The notes under the pieces: model-generated
Databases searched by the model: none
What the model was told of the DNA's origin: nothing
The model's input: the letters and a program-made list of their open reading frames with translations, nothing else
Shown: positions 21,786-40,277 of the stretch, piece by piece
How positions within the stretch are numbered: the first letter of the stretch is position 1
Layout of the letters: every line of letters starts with the position of its first letter
Program-made: the position numbers and the translations under genes
Assembly (NCBI GenBank): GCA_004356105.1
Contig: SMYC01000152.1
Coordinates: 1-64,000, forward strand
DNA from: Acidobacteriota bacterium
GTDB taxonomy: Bacteria; Acidobacteriota; Vicinamibacteria; Marinacidobacterales; SMYC01
DNA length: 64,000 bases
Direction of reading: 5' to 3'

Positions 21786-22982
21786 TTAAGATTTCCCCCT
21801 TCTCAGAAAAGTCGGGACGTCGAGGTCTTCTCCGTCCACTGTTTCAACGGTGTCGAAATCGAGGTCGGCAGCGAGGTTTTGCGCACCTTTGCGATAGAAC
21901 TCCTCACTTCCAGCGGCGATTTTTTCCTTCGGCGGCTTGTAGTTTTGGATATCGACCGGCGTCACCGTCTGCCGCCGACGGCTACTTTCGTGACGGTTGA
22001 AGCCTGTCGCGATGACGGTGACCTTGATCTTGCCGGTCATCTTCGGATCGACAACAGCACCGAAGATGATGTTCGCATCGACGTCGGCCGCTTCGTAGAT
22101 TATCGAGGATGCGTCGTTCACTTCGAGAAGGCTCATATCTTCGCCTCCAGTAATGTTGATGATGACGCCCTTGGCGCCGTCGACCGAAGCGTCCTCGAGG
22201 AGCGGGCTGCTGATGGCCATCTTGGCGGCATCTTCCGCACGCTTCTCGCCTTCCGCGATACCCGTTCCCATCACGGCGTCGCCCATACCGCGCATGATGG
22301 TGCGCACATCGGCGAAGTCCAGATTGATGAGACCCGGCACCGTGATCAGATCGGAGATGCCTTGAACGGCTTGACGCAGCACATCGTCGGCCTTGCTGAA
22401 CGCGTCCGAGAGCGATGTCGTGCGCTCGACGGTCTGCAGCAAACGATCGTTCGGGATCGAGATGAGCGTATCCACCTGCTCCCGTAGCTCGCGTACGCCT
22501 TCTTCCGCTTGCTGCTGCCGGCGGCGCCCCTCGAAGGTGAAGGGCTTGGTGACAACGGCAACCGTGAGCGCCCCGAGCTCGCTCGCGAGAGAAGCGACGA
22601 TCGGGGCACCCCCCGTGCCCGTGCCCCCGCCGAGCCCGGCGGTGATGAACACCATGTCCGCGCCCTCAATGGCTTCGATAATTTTCTCGGTATCCTCGAG
22701 CGCGGCCTGCCGGCCGATCTCGGGATCCGCGCCGCAGCCGAGTCCTTTGGTGAGCTTCGCACCGAGCGTGATTTTGTCGGGCGCACGGCTCGCTGCAAGC
22801 GATTGCTGATCGGTGTTCGCCGCCAGAAACTCCACGCCTGCAATTCTTGATTCGATCATTCGATTGACGGCGTTGCTCCCGCCGCCTCCGACCCCGATGA
22901 CTTTGATGCGGGCTTTGGTCTCGGTACTGTCATCTAAAGACACCCGCGGAGCGGGGTTGTCTTCTTCGAAACGAATCCTCAT
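21786..22982 (-). CDS. ftsZ: Cell division protein FtsZ
   Basis: [32 protein letters not shown] tubulin signature. Confidence 0.97.
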
Positions 22983-38539: not shown

Positions 38540-38980
38540 TCAGATGTCGAACTCCGCCATGGCACGTTGATCGTCCTCACCGAACGGCTCACCGCGAATC
38601 TGCTCCGCCAGATAGTCGTGATTCCAAACCTCCAAGTGGTCCTGCATTCCCAGTACGTCGACACTTCCCTTCATCTGGGCGGATTCTCGAAGCTGCGCGG
38701 GGATGACGAGCCGGCCCTGTTTGTCGAGTGTGGTAGCCTGTCCAAAGAAATGAACACGTTTCAAGAGCTTCTGTTTCGTGGGGTGGAAATCGGGCATCCC
38801 GCAGAGCTTTCTCTCGAACTCGGCCCAGGACTCCATGGGGTAAATGCGAACGTTGTCGCCGCTCAAGCTGGTGACGAAAACGTCCAACCCAAAATTCGTC
38901 TCGATGAGCTGCAAGAAGCTCGTCGGAATTTTGAGTCGACCCTTTTCATCGACCCGAGCAGGATGATTACCCCGGAGCAA
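38540..38980 (-). CDS. mraZ: Transcriptional regulator/division protein MraZ, probable TTG start
   Basis: LRGNHPARVDEKGRLKIPTSF and second repeat TTLDKQGRLVIPAQLRE. Confidence 0.94.
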   Translation of the reverse strand: MLRGNHPARVDEKGRLKIPTSFLQLIETNFGLDVFVTSLSGDNVRIYPMESWAEFERKLCGMPDFHPTKQKLLKRVHFFGQATTLDKQGRLVIPAQLRESAQMKGSVDVLGMQDHLEVWNHDYLAEQIRGEPFGEDDQRAMAEFDI

Positions 38981-39045
38981 TGTAAAGACCTCCCCCCCGG
39001 CCCTCGTCGAAACTCCCACCGACCGGCCAGATTTGTTACTTCTCT

Positions 39046-39090
39046 GCCACTTTATTCCATTTTGATCCACTACGATCCTAAAATAGCCAC
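39046..39090 (-). promoter_or_regulatory. Array of five MraZ-box-like direct repeats with exact 10-bp periodicity
   Basis: Minus-strand RTGGM/TAGGA elements at 39050, 39060, 39070, 39080, 39090 (plus strand GCCAC, TCCAT, TCCAC, TCCTA, GCCAC). Confidence 0.75.
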
Positions 39091-39104
39091 CACCTTAATG
39101 TCAA
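39075..39104 (-). promoter_or_regulatory. Sigma-70-type promoter of the dcw operon
   Basis: -35 TTGACA (39104-39099), 18-bp spacer, -10 TAGGAT (39080-39075). Confidence 0.6.
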
Positions 39105-39218: not shown

Positions 39219-40277
39219 ATGAAAGCAGGCATCGTCGGCTTCGACGGAGTAGGAAAGCGCACACTCTTTGCGCTTCTTACCCAAGTCACGGGTGCGGCCA
39301 CGTCGCGCGTCGAGCAAATGGGCATGCTTCGCATCCCTGACGAAAGGCTCGAGGAGTTAACAAGGCTCCACGAGTCGAGGAAGACAACCGCAGCGACCAT
39401 CGAGTTCGTTCTCCTTCCGAGCCTCGTCAAAGGCCGCGCCGACAAGCTCGACGTGAGCAGCTTGCGCAATGTCGATGTGCTCGTCCATGTCGTGCGCGCT
39501 TTCGAAGAGCCTTCCGTGCCTCACCCCGAAGGCAGCGTCGACGCCGCACGCGACCTCGAGCTCATGGAGCTCGAGCTCACCCTCTCCGATCTCGCCGTGG
39601 TGGAAAAACGTTACGAGAAAATGAAAGCGGATACGAAGAAAGGCCGTCCGACAGATGCGCACGAGCTCAAAGCACTCGAGCAGGCCACGAAGGCGCTTTC
39701 CGACGGCCGGCCGCTACGCGCCGCACTCTCCGCCGAAGATCGCGACCGGCTTCGAGGCTACGCGCTCTTGACGGCGAAGCCCCTGCTCGCGGTCGTCAAT
39801 GTCGGCGAGGACGAAGCCAGCGGTTCCGCTCTCACCAAGAAGCTGGGTCTGACCGATTGGGCCGGTGCTCCAGGTTTCGCGCTGACCTACGTCTCGGCGC
39901 GCATCGAGAGCGAGATCGCGGAGCTCGGGCCCGAGGACGCCAAGACGTTTCGCGACGATCTAGGCCTCTCCAACGGGATGGCCGAGCGCGTCGTTCGAGC
40001 CGCTTTCGATCTGCTCGATGTCATCACCTTCTACACAGCGAGCGACATCGAATCACGAGCCTGGATTATTCCGCGCGATACAAAAGCGGCCAAGGCGGCA
40101 GGCACGATCCACAGTGATATGGAACGCGGCTACATTCGAGCCGAAGTGGTGCACTACGATGTTCTCGTCCGCGAAGGCTCTTGGAACGTGTGCCGCGACA
40201 AGGGTCTATTGCGCCTCGAAGGAAAAGAATATCCCATCGCCGAAGCGGATGTGGTGTACTTTCGCTTCAACGTTTGA
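39219..40277 (+). CDS. YchF/OLA1-like protein with degenerate P-loop and G3 motif and an intact C-terminal DUF933/TGS domain
   Basis: GFDGVGKRTLF P-loop, FVLLPSLVKG in place of FVDIAGLVKG, GTIHSDMERGYIRAEVVHYD C-terminus. Confidence 0.85.
   Translation: MKAGIVGFDGVGKRTLFALLTQVTGAATSRVEQMGMLRIPDERLEELTRLHESRKTTAATIEFVLLPSLVKGRADKLDVSSLRNVDVLVHVVRAFEEPSVPHPEGSVDAARDLELMELELTLSDLAVVEKRYEKMKADTKKGRPTDAHELKALEQATKALSDGRPLRAALSAEDRDRLRGYALLTAKPLLAVVNVGEDEASGSALTKKLGLTDWAGAPGFALTYVSARIESEIAELGPEDAKTFRDDLGLSNGMAERVVRAAFDLLDVITFYTASDIESRAWIIPRDTKAAKAAGTIHSDMERGYIRAEVVHYDVLVREGSWNVCRDKGLLRLEGKEYPIAEADVVYFRFNV

Follow-up and report, generated by a model that had tools for sequence, protein, structure and literature searches.

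MraZ, which regulates the bacterial cell-division (dcw) gene cluster, has been studied in Escherichia coli, Burkholderia, corynebacteria, and mycoplasmas. The E. coli promoter Pmra is repressed by MraZ (Eraso 2014, as cited in PMC8475190 and PMC7761207), and in strain K-12 it reads TTGACA, TAAACT, and then GTGGG-N5-GTGGG-N5-GTGGG. In Burkholderia cenocepacia, MraZ bound a fragment with four repeats over the mapped transcription start in an EMSA (PMC7761207). The MraZ site of mollicutes has been given as (AAAGTGK N3)3 (Fisunov 2016, as quoted in PMC5282649). Newer MraZ structures are also present in the PDB (9qlr, 9qlg, and 9sx6). Here, we analyzed the mraZ promoter in a stretch of 64,000 nucleotides of DNA from an uncultured acidobacterium, the whole of which is referred to as the window. 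Its operator looks like a familiar type of switch that carries a minor extension specific to the family, and looks largely ordinary.

Promoter and box array upstream of mraZ

The minus strand from 39104 to 39046 reads TTGACA TTAAGGTG GTGGC TATTT TAGGA TCGTA GTGGA TCAAA ATGGA ATAAA GTGGC. The following features were located in and downstream of this segment.

39099..39104, minus strand: −35 hexamer TTGACA, from the sequence and the promoter scan; invariant in three family genomes
39086..39090, minus strand: candidate upstream MraZ box GTGGC in the −35/−10 spacer, family specific; in register, with 5/5 bases invariant in three family genomes
39075..39080, minus strand: −10 hexamer TAGGAT, from the promoter scan; its TAGGA was box 2 of the initial annotation, and it is a possible −10/box hybrid
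39066..39070, minus strand: core MraZ box GTGGA, conserved across the class
39056..39060, minus strand: core MraZ box ATGGA, conserved across the class
39046..39050, minus strand: core MraZ box GTGGC, conserved across the class
38989..38998, minus strand: ribosome-binding site GGGGGGGAGG, 8 bp before the mraZ start, from the sequence
38540..38980, minus strand: mraZ, start TTG 38980, 146 amino acids, PF02381
21786..38518, minus strand: remaining dcw cluster, with rsmH, ftsL, an ftsI-type penicillin-binding protein (PBP) gene, murE, murF, mraY, murD, ftsW, murG, murC, murB, ftsQ, ftsA, and ftsZ

Four RTGG boxes were found in an exact 10-bp register, beginning at 39090 (GTGGC), 39070 (GTGGA), 39060 (ATGGA), and 39050 (GTGGC), and all four are exact RTGGM boxes with the GTG/TGG core and 10-bp period of MraZ operators. 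The initial annotation had described five RTGGM-like pentamers here. Its coordinates and 10-bp register were correct when the sequence was read again, and four of its five pentamers fit RTGGM; TAGGA at 39080 does not match and belongs to the −10 hexamer. Its transcription of the sequence had kept the register and lost three bases, the true minus-strand order being TTGACATTAAG-GTG-GTGGC, followed by the pentamers and spacers given above. Because the missing GTG precedes the first box, the register is unchanged. The stricter pattern of five consecutive TGG-core boxes is absent from the array, where TAGGA lacks TGG, and had no match in the genome of the window.

The promoter scan gave TTGACA-18-TAGGAT as the sole sigma-70-like match in the region (10/12), in agreement with the −35 and −10 hexamers that had been reported as embedded in the array. 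Judged by its distance from this −10 (about 7 bp), the transcription start would fall near 39068, within the box at 39070.

mraZ and the dcw cluster

The mraZ gene begins at TTG 38980 (MLRGNHPARVDEKGRLKIP). PF02381 matched its product in two stretches (69.7 bits; cut-off, 23), and alignment with E. coli MraZ revealed that D11xxxR15 and D86xxxR90 are retained, giving the two MraZ domains with one DxxxR motif each that mark the family. The protein scored 76.4 bits against NCBIfam TIGR00242, below the stricter cut-off of 98.35, indicating that it is a divergent family member. The GGGGAGG(T) at the ribosome-binding site was retained in two family relatives. The open frame would also permit a longer mraZ starting within the operator at GTG 39070 (window 38540-39070, minus strand, 176 amino acids). 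This start was rejected, because a stop breaks the frame in the family genome G003 and the MLRGN start after GGGGAGG is conserved.

The dcw cluster is complete from mraZ to ftsZ (at 21786); rsmH, ftsL, and the PBP gene were named by NCBIfam and the other genes by eye from the open reading frames. Among named records, the RsmH nearest to that of the window came from an uncultured Acidobacteria metagenome-assembled genome (73% identity). In the opposite direction, a ychF-like gene begins at 39219. The boxes (39046-39090) are thus placed as in other MraZ operators, ahead of an mraZ start (38980) and a cluster reaching ftsZ.

Conservation of the array across the class

We compared the array with 45 mraZ promoters from the window's class of Acidobacteriota, all outside its order; in family f3 (13 genomes), where mraZ occurs as a tandem pair, the site counted was the one belonging to the second gene. 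Every one of the 45 promoters showed TTGAC, a −10, and then phased boxes, and 43 of them had three boxes. The class consensus was GTGGA-N5-GTGGA-N5-GTGGA, with TGG invariant or nearly so at all three positions. A TANNNT hexamer started exactly 10 bp ahead of the first box in 38/45 promoters, and −10 sequences unlike any box (TACTA, TACGA, and TAGAC) occupied the same in-phase position in other families. Since the −10 is in phase with the array even where it is not box-like, the general layout is enough to explain the phase of TAGGA.

Alignment of the upstream regions of relatives, a check proposed with the initial annotation, showed that the 10-bp register was kept in all three family genomes, in addition to the three boxes in 43 of the 45 other promoters. 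The register is therefore conserved, and the absence of conservation that would have spoken against an operator did not occur. The family register, the three boxes past the −10 throughout the class, and the layout of E. coli K-12 support the proposal that the mraZ/dcw promoter carries an operator of the MraZ type.

Two further proposals did not hold. A lineage-specific half-site was ruled out by the class logo, in which GTGGA is the consensus, and by the sequences of E. coli, whose GTGGG shares the TGG core, and of Desulfatitalea, whose boxes are GTGGA, GTGGA, and TTGGG. Three or four boxes were found before mraZ at named loci of Desulfatitalea, a Thermoanaerobaculia metagenome-assembled genome, a gp7 acidobacterium, and Hydrocarboniphaga. 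Uniqueness of the five-box count was likewise ruled out, by strict five-box arrays in 24 of the 297 Acidobacteriota genomes sampled, all of them in another family of the phylum (f34; L125-L148). These arrays carry GTGG every 10 bp five times, 102 to 107 bp before the conserved MraZ N terminus and downstream of a TAGACT-like −10. Thus, neither the half-site nor the box number is new.

Family-specific extension of the array

Three genomes of the window's family were usable; a further one, G002 (L052; RsmH 73% identical), was left out with its mraZ cut at a contig end. GTGGC in the spacer (5/5 bases) and TAGGAT (6/6) were invariant across the three genomes. Divergence was seen in the four bases preceding the first core box (0/4 invariant) and in the flanks, with 2/31 invariant positions in the 31 bp downstream and 10/60 in the 60 bp upstream. 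Outside the order, NTGG occurred at the position of the upstream GTGGC in a single one of the 45 class promoters, and none had GG in the −10. Among 60 genomes, the full layout with the upstream box was found in the three family genomes only, once in each and at mraZ.

These results establish the extra in-phase box between −35 and −10 as a true family trait, and the spacer box with the GG-bearing −10 as a modest family variant of the standard operator. The initial annotation had placed two copies within the core promoter. The spacer GTGGC stands as a good box at the family level; TAGGA is the −10 itself and is at best a putative box. Judged from three genomes, the GG may have been kept for use as a box. 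The stretch that separates GTGGC from TAGGA is conserved in the family as well (TATYT, 4/5; the core-box spacers gave 1/5 and 2/5), a warning that the GTGGC-TAGGAT block may have another use.

Other mraZ arrangements in the Acidobacteriota

Three other families differed in their arrangement of mraZ and its boxes. Family f3 of the same class (L006-L018) has two tandem mraZ genes, both matching PF02381 (e.g., L009:1282-1734 and L009:1861-2298). A separate array, with GTG cores at 10-bp intervals (GTGTGGAAAAGTGGAAGAAAGTGTGGAA), belongs to the first gene (FKGTYRHRIDPKGRLPVP...); the promoter and GTGGA array of the second (LRGNHPARVDDKGRLKIP...) are of the class type. Such paralogs with two adjacent operator types could reveal how box specificity diverges, and they may merit more attention than the operator of the window. 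In family f7 of the same class (L003-L005), a single locus gave four MraZ domain matches, corresponding to two mraZ genes, and the middle box of the class-type promoter is imperfect (GTGGA, TTGGC, GTGG).

Family f2 belongs to the window's order (L035-L044 except L040); in it, three boxes in phase stand some 130 bp ahead of the MraZ N terminus. No TTGACA-17-TANNNT promoter was found ahead of these boxes, and some members have TAGGA in register after the array. The promoter must therefore be arranged differently in this family; its boxes may be located within the promoter or upstream of it, and the sign of control could differ.

Proposed regulation and alternative readings

We are confident in reading the array as an MraZ operator of the standard type, lying over the beginning of an intact cluster that runs from mraZ to ftsZ; its most likely function is autorepression. 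RNA polymerase would use TTGACA-N18-TAGGAT and initiate near 39068. MraZ, presumably a ring-shaped oligomer whose subunits each carry two DxxxR motifs, would read the TGG-core boxes, spaced one helical turn apart along the same face of the DNA. The three core boxes would span about +1 to +25, and the fourth, family-specific box would add a contact in the promoter spacer. MraZ bound over the start site and the −10 would lower transcription of mraZ and of the genes that follow, as its steric cover of about +1 to +25, and probably of the spacer box too, would exclude polymerase. If the cluster is cotranscribed, MraZ would thereby set the levels of the division and wall genes as well as its own. 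Repression at this promoter is suggested by the position of the boxes and by analogy with E. coli. The sign of regulation could differ, given the f2 boxes with no TTGACA-type promoter in front and the description of MraZ as an activator in mycoplasmas (PMC7761207). Activation at the window's promoter is nevertheless improbable, because boxes on and after the start and in the spacer occupy the place where polymerase is expected to be blocked, as in E. coli and B. cenocepacia. Chance repeats without function would fit one observation, that the bare three-box RTGG pattern had as many matches genome-wide (5) as its reversed control (5). No excess of this pattern over the control pointed to a wider three-box regulon in the window's genome. 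Because the RTGG pattern is not rare genome-wide, the weight lies on its position at mraZ and on conservation, not on the pattern alone. Within the 64-kb window, three consecutive RTGGM boxes were expected 0.01 times and found once, and 5,000 dinucleotide shuffles of the 238-bp intergenic region gave three NTGG boxes in register in 16 cases and four of five in 1. With the same site ahead of mraZ across the class, a chance origin is ruled out by conservation, and the probability left to it is close to nil.

The other alternatives accept an MraZ operator and differ in its extent. All five pentamers, TAGGA included, could form one five-box operator, the reading put forward in the initial annotation, in which the array extends upstream through the promoter in the window's family and the −10 doubles as a box. 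MraZ and the sigma factor would then compete for the same bases, and the GG in the −10 would be kept for this double use. The invariance of GTGGC and TAGGAT amid diverged flanks and diverged bases after TAGGAT is consistent with such an operator, as are a GG that no other class promoter has, though it makes a poorer −10, and the strict five-box MraZ arrays of family f34. However, TAGGA lacks the TGG that hardly varies at any core box of the class, its phase follows from the general layout (TACTA, TACGA, or TAGAC stand in the same place elsewhere), and the invariance comes from only three related genomes. We consider this extension possible and doubtful, and the same applies to TAGGA as a box that MraZ itself reads. 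The conserved 16-bp block GTGGCTATYTTAGGAT might instead be a promoter element or the site of another factor, with MraZ using the three core boxes alone. This would account for the conserved bases between GTGGC and TAGGA, unlike those between core boxes, but GTGGC matches the box exactly and keeps the precise register of the core array, an outcome that would be rare for five conserved bases at random phase, and the related family f2 opens its own array with GTGGC-TATTT. We therefore regard such an element as rather unlikely and retain the four-box operator, with three core boxes and one family-specific box in the spacer.

Comparison with known MraZ operators

These results suggest that the architecture by which MraZ controls the division cluster is the same in a class of Acidobacteriota that has received little study. 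They also suggest that the number of boxes (three, four, or five) and their placement, downstream of the promoter or reaching into it, vary by family. This natural series could be used to test how many boxes are needed per MraZ ring and how placement relates to the strength of control.

Within the phylum, the f34 arrays share the GTGG boxes, the 10-bp period, and the location before mraZ with the array of the window, and differ in that their strict RTGG boxes number five and lie entirely downstream of the −10 (TAGACT). The mollicute site shares the 10-bp period and the GTG core, whereas its flanking bases are different and MraZ acts there, as described, as an activator. PmraBc of B. cenocepacia likewise has phased repeats over the start (7 nucleotides with a 3-nucleotide spacer, period 10), where MraZ binding has been demonstrated (PMC7761207), but their number is four and all are downstream of the −10. 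E. coli K-12 Pmra has the same TTGACA promoter with three TGG-core boxes at a 10-bp period, just past the −10 and before mraZ. It differs in its GTGGG boxes, compared with GTGGA/C in the window, in a distance of 7 bp from the −10 to the first box, compared with 4 bp, and in having no box in the −35/−10 spacer, where the window's family carries its additional GTGGC.
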